Origin: Bacillota bacterium
GTDB lineage: Bacteria; Bacillota; Sulfobacillia; JAJYWN01
Length of the DNA stretch: 60,381 nt
Assembly (NCBI GenBank): GCA_021791495.1
Contig: JAJYWN010000018.1
Location: 1-60,381 of the forward strand
Direction of reading: 5' to 3'
Positions 55,382 through 58,909 of the stretch are shown here, piece by piece (within the stretch, counting starts at the first letter, position 1; the number at the start of each line of letters is the position of its first letter). A program made the translations under genes and the position numbers. The notes beneath the pieces were generated by a model. It saw only the letters and a program-made list of their open reading frames with translations. It was not told where the DNA came from and did no database searches.

Positions 55382-56188
55382 ATGCCTATTCTGGTGATAG
55401 TCCTGATAGTCCCGACACTACTGGGGTTCAACCATCTGGCCTCCAGGTATAAGTACACGGCCCGGAGCAAGAGGTTGTTGGTGGCCCTGGGGCTGCTGTC
55501 GTTGATCATTCCATTCGTCTTCGTCCGCTGGCAGTTCCCGCTCCTTGAGATCTCGTTAGTAATCGCCGCCTCACTGGCCTTTGGTCTGCCTACCTTCGCC
55601 CTCTTGGCCGTGGTCGCCGTGGAGGTCTGGCGCAAGCGGAAGCAGGCCACCTTTGACCACGCCATCGGCGAACTGGCACGCCGCCGCTCGGCCCTGCAGG
55701 ACCGTCTGTACACCCTCGATCAGCGCCAAGAGATGATCCTTTACCGGCAGGCAGAGGCGGAATCGCGCGACCCCGAGACGCTGGCCCGCCAGCGGTCGCT
55801 CCGGGAGAAGCTCGAGGCTTGGCAGCAGGCGGGGGGCATGGCGCGCATCCGCACCATCAAGGTGTCTGAGTGGGCGGCCGAGACGGCGAAGCAGACCGTT
55901 GAAGAGCTCTCGGCGCGCGAGGTCGCCCTGAAGGAGGAAATGGAGCGCGAGACCGACCCGGATCGCATCTCGCATCTCGACGCCCAGCTGGCCGTGGTAG
56001 GGCTGGAACTGGCGGGGCGGGGGCAGCGGACTCCCGAATCCGAACTGCACGACCTGGCGAAGACCGGTGACGAACTACGCGCGGAAAAGAAGGCCGCCGA
56101 ACTGGAAGTCATTCGGATCAAGGAAGAGATAGCCGAATGGGAGCGGCGCCGGACCCATTTCCTTTCCCAACAGATCCTATTGGACTAG
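55382..56188 (+). CDS. Membrane protein with long coiled coil
   Basis: A 268-residue protein, not recognised. Three hydrophobic segments (about residues 2-16, 31-48, 57-82) are followed by a highly charged, helix-forming C-terminal region (about 85-268). That region is rich in Glu, Arg, Ala and Leu with heptad-like spacing (RRRSALQDRLYTLDQRQEMI, TPESELHDLAKTGDELRAEKKAAELEVIRIKEEIAEWERR). This predicts a membrane-tethered coiled coil in the cytoplasm. ATG 55382 has GGCGGAGG upstream. It precedes the Ycf35-DUF2997-Ycf46 operon in the same direction, separated by 252 nt containing the duplicated element. Confidence 0.75.
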   Translation: MPILVIVLIVPTLLGFNHLASRYKYTARSKRLLVALGLLSLIIPFVFVRWQFPLLEISLVIAASLAFGLPTFALLAVVAVEVWRKRKQATFDHAIGELARRRSALQDRLYTLDQRQEMILYRQAEAESRDPETLARQRSLREKLEAWQQAGGMARIRTIKVSEWAAETAKQTVEELSAREVALKEEMERETDPDRISHLDAQLAVVGLELAGRGQRTPESELHDLAKTGDELRAEKKAAELEVIRIKEEIAEWERRRTHFLSQQILLD

Positions 56189-56236: not shown

Positions 56237-56328
56237 GGTGTGGGGGCCGGGGTCCTGTAGCCGCCAGCGGAGCCGGGCTTGGCCCGGCGGAGCGTTCGGG
56301 CGGCGGAGGGAGCGGCACCCACCAAGTT
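56237..56328 (+). repeat. 92-bp duplicated element, copy 1
   Basis: An identical 92-bp copy follows after 2 nt. The unit can fold into three nested helices. P1 is GGTGTGGGGGCCG (56237-56249) with CGGCACCCACC (56313-56323). P2 is GCCGCC (56260-56265) with GGCGGC (56299-56304). P3 is GCCGGGC (56272-56278) with GCCCGGC (56282-56288). It holds no credible ORF and lies upstream of the DUF1257 gene. It could be a tandem leader RNA or a dispersed intergenic repeat. Confidence 0.75.
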
Positions 56329-56330
56329 CA

Positions 56331-56422
56331 GGTGTGGGGGCCGGGGTCCTGTAGCCGCCAGCGGAGCCGGGCTTGGCCCGGCGGAGCGTTCGGGCGGCGG
56401 AGGGAGCGGCACCCACCAAGTT
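56331..56422 (+). repeat. 92-bp duplicated element, copy 2
   Basis: This copy is identical over all 92 bases to copy 1 at an offset of 94. Its end (56422) is 19 nt before the GTG start of the DUF1257 gene, so the ribosome site AGGGAGG lies just beyond the last helix. The absence of any difference between copies indicates a recent duplication or ongoing gene conversion. Confidence 0.75.
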
Positions 56423-56440
56423 AGGGAGGATGGCCCGGGC

Positions 56441-56884
56441 GTGAGCCACATCGCGTCTTACAAGACCCGCATCAAACTGAACCCGAACTGCACGTCGGAG
56501 CATGCGCGGCAGAACGACCCGACCTGGCGCCTGATGCGCGAGGCCATAGAGGCGGCCGCCGCGGATCTCGGTGGCCAAGTGGTGACCGAGATCACCGACT
56601 ACTACTCCCGCCATGTCCCTTGCGATTTCGGAATCGTCACGCCGCAGTGGCCCCGCGGGGTCGGGATCCGGGTGTCGCCCGTCACGGGCGAAGTTACCTT
56701 CCTCTACGACCCCTACGAAGACCGGCGGGGCGCGGCCAAGAAAATCGCCGAAACGGTGACCCAGAGTTATACCGCTCTGGCGGTGGCCCAGGCCCTGCGC
56801 GCCTTGAACTATGAAGTCGAGATGGACCAGGTAACCGAAGCCGCCGACGGTTCGCGGGCCGTCCTCGTGCGGGGGGTGCTCTAG
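56441..56884 (+). CDS. Ycf35-like DUF1257 protein
   Basis: A 147-residue DUF1257 protein, homologous to plastid/cyanobacterial Ycf35. It starts MSHIASYKTRIKLNPN, typical of the family, and contains DFGIVTPQWPRGVGIRVSPVTGEVTFLYDPYEDRRGAAKKIAETVTQSYTALAVAQALRALNYEVEM. GTG 56441 follows AGGGAGG, and the longer in-frame extension is the duplicated non-coding element. It overlaps the DUF2997 start by 1 nt. No function is established for the family. Confidence 0.88.
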   Translation: MSHIASYKTRIKLNPNCTSEHARQNDPTWRLMREAIEAAAADLGGQVVTEITDYYSRHVPCDFGIVTPQWPRGVGIRVSPVTGEVTFLYDPYEDRRGAAKKIAETVTQSYTALAVAQALRALNYEVEMDQVTEAADGSRAVLVRGVL

Positions 56885-57141
56885 TGGTGAACCGCCGGGT
56901 GGAATTCCGGGTGAACAACCGCGGCGAGGTCCGCACCGATTTCATCGGTTTCGCGGGGCCCGAGTGCTACGAAGAGGCCGACCGGCTGCGCCGGCTCTTG
57001 GCGACGTTGGGCGTCACGGTGGAGGACCGGGAGGTCGTGCCGAAGACCGAGGCCCAGATGGCCTTGGAGACCGGTGCAGACCTGGACGAGGAAGCCGAAA
57101 GGACTAAGAAGGCGAAATCGAAGGCGGGTCCCGAACGATAA
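56884..57141 (+). CDS. DUF2997 family protein
   Basis: An 85-residue protein. The first half, VEFRVNNRGEVRTDFIGFAGPECYEEADRLRRLLATLG, matches DUF2997, which in most bacteria is a 60-70 residue protein ('G-x-G-C' followed by a helix). The C-terminal tail is charged and probably disordered. It starts 1 nt inside the DUF1257 gene and precedes the AAA ATPase, the same gene order seen in cyanobacteria and some Bacillota. Function unknown. Confidence 0.85.
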   Translation: MVNRRVEFRVNNRGEVRTDFIGFAGPECYEEADRLRRLLATLGVTVEDREVVPKTEAQMALETGADLDEEAERTKKAKSKAGPER

Positions 57142-57226
57142 CAAGGGTAACGGGGCGGCGCCCCGCGGGTACGCGGGGGTGCCACCGGATTCGGACCTGG
57201 AGTGCCGGGCACGGAGGCTACAAGCG

Positions 57227-58909
57227 TTGACCAGCGCGGTGGAGTGGGATAACCAGTGGATCGAGGAAGGGCTCCTGAAAGTGCGGAGCAACTACTCACC
57301 CATCGTGATTTTCGAAACCACGGACCCGAAGCGGCTCTACCAGCTGAAAGAGTACGTGCGCTCTAACTCCGAGTTACGCGGCAGCGAGTACGTCTTCGTC
57401 TACGATCAGTGGGAAGGTCTGGCGAAACTGAACCCCACCGCCCCCGGAAAAGAGCCCGAGCCCTATCGGAAGGCCGTGGGTAACAGCTCTCTGGCGAAAA
57501 AGGTGGAGGAGGAAGGCGCCCACCTAGTGGCCTTCAAGGCCGTCCTCAAAGAGGTCGACGGCTTCCTGAAGAAGTACCGGACGATCTTCATGGTCCAAAA
57601 CGTCTCCGAGAACCGCGAGGCTGAAACCGGCCTCCAGAGCGCGTTAAGAGCTTGGGCCATCGACCCCAATATCGTGGCGAAAGGCTCGATGGTCTTCTTG
57701 GTGACCGCCGACGCCGACCGCATCTGCGATGAGTTCACCCGGGAACTGGTGGTCATCTTGAGGGTCGACCCATCCAGTTCCCGCGAACGGCAGGCCATGG
57801 TGACGGCCACCGCGCGCGAGCTGGACCTCCGGCTTGACTCGGACCGGACCGGGGAAGTGGTGATGGCCACGGCCGGCATGAACCTCCACCAACTGGAGAG
57901 CATCCTCCTGGAGTCCTACCATCTGACCAAGGCCTTCGACCTTCCGGCCATCAAGAACCTGAAGTCCGCCCTGGTGAAGCGTTCCGGCGTGCTGGAGGTG
58001 CGGGACCCGCAGAACGGCTTCGACGAGATCGGCGGGTATCAGGTGGTCAAGGAGTTCGTCACCAGATACATCATCAACGTCCTGCGGTACTCCGACCGGG
58101 CACGGCGCTACGCTTTACCCTTGCCGAAAGGCATCCTTTTCTTCGGCCCTCCGGGCACAGGAAAGAGCCTCTTCGCCAACGCGCTGGCCAAGGAGATCAA
58201 CCTCCCGTTCATAAACCTCGTCACCGAAAACATATATTCCAAGTGGCTGGGGGAGAGTGGGCAGAACCTGCGTAACGCCATCCAGCTGGCGGAGAAGATG
58301 TCGCCGGCGGTCGTCTTCATCGACGAGATCGACCGGTTCGGGAAGCGCGGAGGGGGCGGGGGCGATTCGGCAGGGGAGGAGACCAAGAGGGTTTTCTCCC
58401 AATTCCTCGAGTGGTTGGGGCGCCCCGATCGCCAAGCCATCATCGTCGGGACGACCAACGTCCCGGAGCACCTGGACGAGGCCTTCACCCGCACGGGACG
58501 CTTTGACTACAAGATTCCGTTCCTTTATCCGGGGCCGGCGGCCAGACAGGAGATCCTGCTGGTGCATCTGGGGCTGAAGCAAGGATTAAGAAAGGGCAAG
58601 CCGCCTCTGACGGTGTCCGAGGGGGAGTTGGTGGGGTTCCTGAAGCAGCGGGTAGTCCCTCTGACCGAGAACTTCTCTGGGGCGGAGTTAGAGGAATTGG
58701 TGACTCGAGCAAAAAGATTAGCCTTTGACCGGGGTGCGGAGGGTTTGGAGCAGGAGGATTTTCTCAAGGCAGCTAGAACTTTCCGCATAGACCGGGAACG
58801 TAGGCAGGAAATCGTAGAGGAGTGCCTCGAACAAGCTAGACGGTTCACCGACGACCAGGCCTTTCTGGACGCCATCGAAAAGGAGATGGACATCGAAGTA
58901 GGCAACTAA
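57227..58909 (+). CDS. Ycf46-like AAA+ ATPase
   Basis: A 560-residue AAA-family ATPase resembling Ycf46. The N-terminal non-ATPase domain (about 1-260) opens EEGLLKVRSNYSPIVIFETTDPKRLYQLKEYV and has FMVQNVSENREAETGLQSALRAWA and GSMVFLVTADADRI. The AAA module has Walker A FFGPPGTGKSLFANALAKE, Walker B AVVFIDEIDRFGKRGGGGGD, sensor 1 IIVGTTNVPEHLDEAF and an Arg-finger-like TRTGRFDYKIPF. A C-terminal lid follows (FSGAELEELVTRAKRLAF). TTG 57227 with GGAGG 9 nt upstream is preferred over earlier starts. It is the motor of the Ycf35-DUF2997 operon. Confidence 0.88.
   Translation: MTSAVEWDNQWIEEGLLKVRSNYSPIVIFETTDPKRLYQLKEYVRSNSELRGSEYVFVYDQWEGLAKLNPTAPGKEPEPYRKAVGNSSLAKKVEEEGAHLVAFKAVLKEVDGFLKKYRTIFMVQNVSENREAETGLQSALRAWAIDPNIVAKGSMVFLVTADADRICDEFTRELVVILRVDPSSSRERQAMVTATARELDLRLDSDRTGEVVMATAGMNLHQLESILLESYHLTKAFDLPAIKNLKSALVKRSGVLEVRDPQNGFDEIGGYQVVKEFVTRYIINVLRYSDRARRYALPLPKGILFFGPPGTGKSLFANALAKEINLPFINLVTENIYSKWLGESGQNLRNAIQLAEKMSPAVVFIDEIDRFGKRGGGGGDSAGEETKRVFSQFLEWLGRPDRQAIIVGTTNVPEHLDEAFTRTGRFDYKIPFLYPGPAARQEILLVHLGLKQGLRKGKPPLTVSEGELVGFLKQRVVPLTENFSGAELEELVTRAKRLAFDRGAEGLEQEDFLKAARTFRIDRERRQEIVEECLEQARRFTDDQAFLDAIEKEMDIEVGN

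Follow-up and report, generated by a model that had tools for sequence, protein, structure and literature searches.

Ycf35, DUF2997 and Ycf46 have long been known as plastid and cyanobacterial genes of unclear function. In Synechocystis, the genes for DUF2997 and Ycf35 share an operon with fed7, whose product is a redox-relay (thiol/redox) ferredoxin required under iron and oxidative stress (PMC4284462), whereas ycf46 (slr0374) belongs to a separate operon, slr0373-slr0374-slr0376, which responds to iron deficiency, sulfur deficiency and oxidative stress (PMC7496141). The first-pass annotation of the DNA described here had stated that the three genes are kept together in cyanobacteria; this does not hold for Synechocystis, where they are split between these two operons, although they are joined on a plasmid of Geminocystis (within 3.4 kb). 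Nor is the system wholly undescribed in functional terms, as had been supposed, given that inactivation of ycf46 in Synechocystis alters CO2 utilisation (Jiang 2015 as cited in PMC7496141) and carbonic anhydrase activity (PMC7496141). Across red-algal plastids, ycf34, ycf35, ycf46 and pbsA show similar patterns of presence and absence (PMC5940233).

Locus layout and conservation in relatives

The window, by which we mean the whole stretch of DNA analysed (60,381 nucleotides), carries a DUF1257-like gene, a DUF2997 gene and the gene of an AAA+ ATPase, preceded by the gene of a membrane protein. Their features are as follows.

55382..56188, + strand: gene of a membrane-tethered coiled-coil protein (268 aa), the module's first gene
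56237..56424, no strand: a tandem pair of 94-nt copies with 98% identity, lying between the membrane gene and the DUF1257-like gene
56441..56884, + strand: DUF1257-like (Ycf35-like) gene, GTG start, 147 aa, N-terminus (V/M)SHI
56884..57141, + strand: DUF2997 gene, GTG start, 85 aa, with an invariant Cys (GPEC)
57142..57226, + strand: gap of 85 nt between the DUF2997 and AAA genes, the site of the Cys-Gly-tail gene in relatives
57227..58909, + strand: AAA+ ATPase gene, 560 aa, N-terminal degenerate AAA-like domain followed by an active AAA domain
57311..57334, + strand: FETTDPKR, end of the first strand in the N-terminal domain of the AAA protein, with a P-loop expected next
58145..58168, + strand: Walker A of the AAA protein, GPPGTGKS
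58241..58258, + strand: pore loop 1 of the AAA protein, KWLGES, Vps4/Cdc48-like, substrate threading
58310..58333, + strand: Walker B of the AAA protein, VVFIDEID
58448-58459, + strand: sensor 1 of the AAA protein, GTTN
58490-58510, + strand: arginine-finger region of the AAA protein, RTGRFDY

The tight spacing described earlier, with a 1-nt overlap between the DUF1257-like and DUF2997 genes and then the gap of 85 nt, is exact in its coordinates. The AAA gene starts with TTG, with GGAGG upstream. The pair of 94-nt copies is found nowhere else in the window. Just upstream, the membrane coiled-coil protein that had also been pointed out has three N-terminal hydrophobic segments followed by a coiled-coil-like part, as judged by hydropathy; it contains a WxxxGGxARIRxxKVxEW region and matched no Pfam family. 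The operon resembles that of Synechocystis (PMC4284462) in that the same two small families, DUF1257 (Ycf35) and DUF2997, are adjacent, but there they accompany a [4Fe-4S] ferredoxin, Fed7, and no AAA protein, whereas in this class the operon has the AAA protein, the membrane coiled-coil protein and usually a small protein with a Cys-Gly tail.

We compared 61 genomes, the window genome and 60 relatives. An AAA orthologue is present in 30 of them, the full-length ones being 59–72% identical, and the family profile of the DUF1257-like protein recovered one copy in each of these same genomes, while the remaining 31 have neither gene. The membrane gene was found in all 30 AAA-bearing genomes; it also occurs without the rest of the module in three genomes, all from one genus. 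One genome has a second copy of it. Wherever the gene order was read (26 of 26 relatives), it was membrane protein, DUF1257-like protein, DUF2997 and AAA protein on a single strand, with the membrane-gene homologue directly upstream in every case. This conserved order and co-occurrence are far above chance. The four genes, joined by a fifth in nearly all relatives, are passed on together as a unit. The module-bearing genomes span many families, and therefore this is not the outcome of one recent event. The trio singled out by the first-pass annotation is thus conserved, but the unit is larger, comprising the membrane coiled-coil protein, the DUF1257-like protein, DUF2997, the Cys-Gly-tail protein and the tandem AAA+ ATPase.

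The genes next to the class operon are ordinary and variable, and in the relatives neither an integrase nor a substrate complex was found conserved beside it. A NifU-type gene follows the AAA gene in only five relatives. The named matches are Bacillota MAGs, e.g. Candidatus Fermentithermobacillaceae. Comparison with the phyletic pattern of sporulation, which had been proposed as a check, gave no explanation, and we reject a role in sporulation since Spo0A is near universal (58 of 61 genomes), unlike the module, which only half of the sample has (30 of 61).

The ATPase and its small partners

The AAA protein matches Pfam AAA (7.7e-34) and phrog_8638 (3.2e-54), and a Pfam search found no protease or peptidase domain in it. 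Walker A, Walker B and sensor 1 are intact (GPPGTGKS, VVFIDEID and GTTN), as had been reported. In a structure model of modest confidence (pLDDT 73), the N-terminal half superposes on the D1 ring of p97/Rix7 but is without a P-loop, the motif GxxxxGK[ST] being absent from this domain after FETTDPKR. The protein has two AAA domains in tandem, the first degenerate, the second intact and carrying a threading pore loop. The likeness to Cdc48/p97, Rix7 and Vps4 lies in the tandem arrangement, which overlays p97/Rix7 D1-D2, and in the KWxGES pore loop; the window protein differs in having no Walker motifs in its first domain, in having no ubiquitin-adaptor N-domain and in falling outside FtsH/Cdc48 in the tree. 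NCBIfam models for FtsH, Cdc48 and PAN score it at 128–140 bits against cut-offs of 500–803.

In a tree of AAA domains, the window lineage forms its own clade (95/94), which also includes archaeal, planctomycete, verrucomicrobial and Acetothermia members and stands apart both from FtsH/Cdc48 and from the Ycf46-type clade (100/99); a sister relation between the window clade and the Ycf46-type clade is not rejected (p-AU 0.25). The Ycf46-type reference in this tree consists only of a Geminocystis plasmid protein and phage proteins, and the Ycf46 label of the clade is based on these and on general background. Comparison of the N-terminal domains by hhalign gave 98% (E 2e-13, 209 columns) against the Ycf46-type domain and at most 20% for classical AAA controls. 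A generic FtsH/Cdc48 identity is rejected by both the tree and the N-domain comparison, in agreement with the earlier proposal. The description as Ycf46-like stands as far as the homologous degenerate N-domain is concerned, the same combination of a degenerate N-terminal AAA-like domain and one active AAA domain being common to Ycf46 (slr0374 operon, PMC7496141), phrog_8638 and the window protein, but it has to be narrowed in that the latter belongs to a separate, well-supported clade. IetA models match the protein over its AAA domain only, PADLOC matches are likewise to the generic AAA domain only, and for IetAS there is no second defence gene in the operon, none conserved beside it and no IetS-like partner adjoining.

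The DUF1257-like protein of the window had no Pfam DUF1257 match at E<=1 (PF06868, gathering cut-off 22.2 bits), and Pfam DUF1257 matched one of the 27 class family members (E 0.017). Profile-profile comparison (hhalign) of the family with DUF1257 proteins of phages, plasmids and cyanobacteria gave 97.6% (E 3e-12, 113 columns), and an archaeal protein (L102) bridges the two, scoring 25.9 bits against PF06868 and E 7.5e-13 in hhalign against the class DUF1257-like profile. The N-terminus is of the MSH type by which DUF1257 membership was tested. A structure model had a single significant match in BFVD (E 3.8e-5), an unnamed protein of 147 aa that is perhaps the DUF1257 protein of Rhizobium phage RHph_I4, equal in length (147 aa); it had no PDB match at E<=0.001, and its VIA-align Z values, below 7, were uninformative. 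The window protein is a distant DUF1257 relative, below Pfam grade and assigned by profile-profile comparison only. Pfam DUF1257 was found in one of 299 genomes in a scan of the phylum, a count that is low because Pfam is insensitive here, the apparent absence not being real.

For DUF2997, the window protein scores 20.3 bits against PF11211, below the cut-off of 24.1 bits, but PF11211 matches 25 of the 27 class members (best 2.6e-7), and the class family matches distant DUF2997 proteins at 98.7% (hhalign, E 1.6e-16), so that the assignment is solid at the level of the family. Residue C28, within a GxxC motif, is invariant in all 27 class members, where the gene keeps its position after DUF1257. 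The cysteine is also present in 13 of the 14 distant members read, the exception being from Hydrogenedens (L098). The two small proteins occur fused in a Bacillota element (L051), with both Pfam matches above cut-off, and in one open frame in Acetothermia (L094). PRTRC-like genes lie near the fused protein. Scans of viral contigs with the AAA protein and with the fused protein found no relatives.

The same partners recur well outside this class. DUF1257, DUF2997 and a Ycf46-type AAA gene lie close together on a Rhizobium phage-plasmid, a Thermovibrio plasmid and the Geminocystis plasmid, and the canonical trio is also present in Hydrogenedens and in a class relative without the window-type operon (G024). 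Both AAA lineages therefore use the same small partners, DUF1257 and DUF2997; the membrane coiled-coil and Cys-Gly-tail partners were seen only with the window's clade, and a homologue of the membrane protein was not detected in the archaeal or phage versions. Among phage records with DUF1257 (17, from phages of Rhizobium, Aeromonas and Pseudomonas), every one has a Ycf46-type AAA gene 0.9–1.6 kb upstream on the same strand, and therefore the pairing of AAA with DUF1257 is a general one that depends on neither photosynthesis nor sporulation. The order of this cassette, taken from four annotated records, is AAA, a protein of ~220 aa, DUF1257 and DUF2997. In two annotated phages and one phage-plasmid, the trio is near DnaB/PolA genes. 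The hosts found (half of the sampled class relatives and other non-photosynthetic bacteria, archaea, plasmids and phages) reject a purely photosynthetic role and bear out the earlier argument for a shared, conserved unit.

The Cys-Gly-tail gene

In nearly all relatives, the gap between the DUF2997 and AAA genes is ~160–420 nt long, and all 26 relatives inspected have within it a frame ending in Cys-Gly, which in about half of them overlaps the DUF2997 gene by 4 nt. By comparison, 5 of 964 frames in the whole window end in this way. The C-terminal tetrapeptide is (S/T/A)-x-Cys-Gly, in most cases SPCG, with the Cys and the Gly invariant (26 of 26). In close pairs, dN/dS is ~0.17–0.30, and the frame therefore encodes a selected protein. 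A profile of the family recovered it in 29 of the 30 module genomes (E <1e-9), always inside the operon; the matches ranking next reach only E ~0.01. The gene, which the first-pass annotation had overlooked, is unannotated, and its product had no family match in Pfam, NCBIfam or PDB; a weak match of one member to SpxO (E 0.003) was taken as chance. It might be a DUF2997 paralogue, matching class DUF2997 at 92% in profile comparison, but it has no match with distant DUF2997.

Only the window genome, one draft assembly of 81 contigs that is 97% complete, is missing the gene (1 of 30). A remnant in its 85-nt gap was looked for and rejected, the alignment being no better than shuffles. The gene is also absent from the phage versions, and together these absences mean that it is not essential everywhere. 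Frames ending in Cys-Gly occur at the same position in archaea, in Thermoprotei (L102, ...TSICG), Archaeoglobales (L101, ...IGRCG) and Archaeoglobaceae (L096, ...EGVCG), and a further archaeal locus (L117) has one ending in ...RSPCG after DUF2997. Their identity is judged from position, tail and size because divergence of the bodies makes profile matching unreliable, with only L096 matching (E 0.019). On the Thermovibrio plasmid, DUF2997 is likewise followed by a frame ending in Cys-Gly, but its body is dissimilar and we did not count it as a member.

Possible function of the operon

Our tentative reading, held at rather less than even confidence, is that the products of the operon form a protein remodeller that is driven by ATP, anchored in the membrane and coupled to redox or sulfur/iron state through its small cysteine-bearing partners. 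DUF1257 and DUF2997 may form an adaptor that sits on the degenerate AAA ring, as suggested by their fusion in two lineages, while tethering of the ring would fall to the coiled-coil membrane protein. A thiol, persulfide or metal state might be sensed or carried by the cysteines in DUF2997 and in the Cys-Gly tail, and the ring would thread or disassemble a membrane-located target under redox, sulfur or iron stress. A remodeller is favoured by the intact KWLGES pore loop without a peptidase domain, the fusions, the co-inheritance, the recurrence of the partners in phages, G024 and Hydrogenedens, the invariant cysteines, the stress links of Fed7 and ycf46 and the similar red-algal plastid patterns of ycf34, ycf35 and ycf46; against it count the one DUF2997 protein without Cys (L098), the lack of the Cys-Gly-tail gene in the window genome and the phages, the membrane protein undetected in archaea and phages, the modest confidence of the AAA model and the restriction of the NifU-type gene to five relatives. 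We infer the redox/sulfur part of the model from the conserved cysteines and from the neighbours in other lineages; the cyanobacterial stress settings agree with it and prove nothing. That non-photosynthetic bacteria, archaea and phages have these genes as one unit, with defined additional subunits and with invariant cysteines, makes a testable machine of what was a list of unknown genes, and the unannotated Cys-Gly-tail gene offers a concrete residue for mutation.

The alternative that survives best, though we find it unlikely, is a chaperone comparable to CbbX, NorQ or MoxR that assembles or disassembles a complex of the membrane or of energy metabolism, with the small proteins as plain adaptors and no thiol/redox switch. 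The membrane tether in all 30 genomes and the tandem AAA of p97/Rix7 type with its degenerate first ring suit this explanation, as do the changes in CO2 use and carbonic anhydrase activity upon ycf46 inactivation in Synechocystis (PMC7496141). However, no conserved substrate complex adjoins the operon, and such a chaperone leaves the invariant cysteines and the presence in phages unexplained.

Unlikely as well is a carrier system, in which the Cys-Gly-tail protein, possibly together with DUF2997, would serve as a small carrier or modifier. Its C-terminal Cys would be charged (with a persulfide, a thioester or a metal), and the AAA protein and DUF1257 would load or strip it, by analogy with ThiS/MoaD, DsrC or ubiquitin-like proteins. 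ThiS, MoaD and DsrC are small carriers with a C-terminal reactive residue, and the Cys-Gly-tail protein resembles them in its short body and its invariant, presumably free, C-terminal tail. The rarity of this ending among the window's frames and the purifying selection on the gene also argue for a carrier, and AAA relatives at two loci (L097 and L099) have JAB-ThiF genes nearby, joined at L097 by Ubl-like and E2-like genes. Yet neither DUF1257 nor DUF2997 was found in the Ubl-type loci examined, and a dedicated E1, rhodanese or desulfurase gene is not among the conserved parts of the class operon. Compared with ThiS/MoaD/DsrC, the protein has another tail and no adjoining activating enzyme; no database match ties it to a carrier family, and neither the window genome nor the phages have it. 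Should this doubtful reading hold, the protein would represent a novel class of carriers or modifiers that work through a C-terminal cysteine, common to bacteria and archaea and loaded or stripped by a dedicated AAA+ machine with DUF1257 and DUF2997, and plastid ycf35 and ycf46 would be remnants of this system.

An origin in mobile genetic elements, serving replication, defence or counter-defence and domesticated here, seems to us improbable. It could draw on the trio on plasmids and in phages, with DnaB/PolA close by in the two annotated phages and the phage-plasmid, on the PRTRC-like neighbours of the fused protein and on the IetA matches; but the class operon is tight, with AAA proteins 59–72% identical, ordinary and variable neighbours and no conserved integrase, no IetS-like partner adjoins it, and the PADLOC matches extend to the generic AAA domain only. 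That the genes are neighbours kept by chance, with no joint function, is barely credible and we reject it, since nothing beyond the divergence of the small proteins speaks for it, whereas co-occurrence over 61 genomes is perfect, fusion proteins exist, and the partners recur in archaea, on plasmids and in phages that are unrelated.

Ubiquitin-like and HerA neighbourhoods of the AAA homologues

Two homologues of the tandem AAA+ ATPase (38–41% identity) lie in a bacterial ubiquitin-like conjugation neighbourhood; JAB-ThiF genes are common to both loci (L097 and L099), to which L097 adds Ubl-like and E2-like genes. A HerA-like ATPase/HExxH pair adjoins the AAA homologue in both Planctomycetota (L097) and Hydrogenedens (L098).

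L097:8602-10876, AAA homologue locus, Planctomycetota MAG
L099:46-1602, AAA homologue locus, Formivibrio MAG
L097:530-4020, HerA-like ATPase and HExxH protein
L098:283-3503, HerA-like ATPase and HExxH protein

Variants of DUF1257 and DUF2997

One Bacillota genome has the two small proteins naturally fused, within a region that resembles a phage or plasmid; PRTRC-like genes (Ubl-like, protein B-like and ThiF) lie downstream of the fusion. In L098, where an activase-like gene separates the two small genes, DUF2997 has lost its cysteine. In all phage versions read (phage or phage-plasmid loci L122 and L124-L127), a protein of ~220 aa and unknown family separates the Ycf46-type AAA from DUF1257.

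L118:6591-13161, DUF1257-DUF2997 fusion with PRTRC-like genes
L098:4026-4643, radical SAM 4Fe-4S activase-like gene separating DUF2997 from the DUF1257-like gene

Spacers, insertions and solitary genes

The spacer between the membrane coiled-coil and DUF1257-like genes is mostly short in relatives, whereas the window carries a tandem repeat there. Five relatives (L028, L031, L034, L035, L043) have a small NifU C-terminal-like gene downstream of the AAA. Membrane coiled-coil homologues lacking the remaining operon genes belong to one genus (L140, L141).

Window 56237-56424, 94-nt unit present as two tandem copies
L033:7060-8721, IS605/TnpB-type insertion separating the AAA from the Cys-Gly-tail gene
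L140:6946-7755, solitary membrane coiled-coil homologue
L141:6439-7275, solitary membrane coiled-coil homologue
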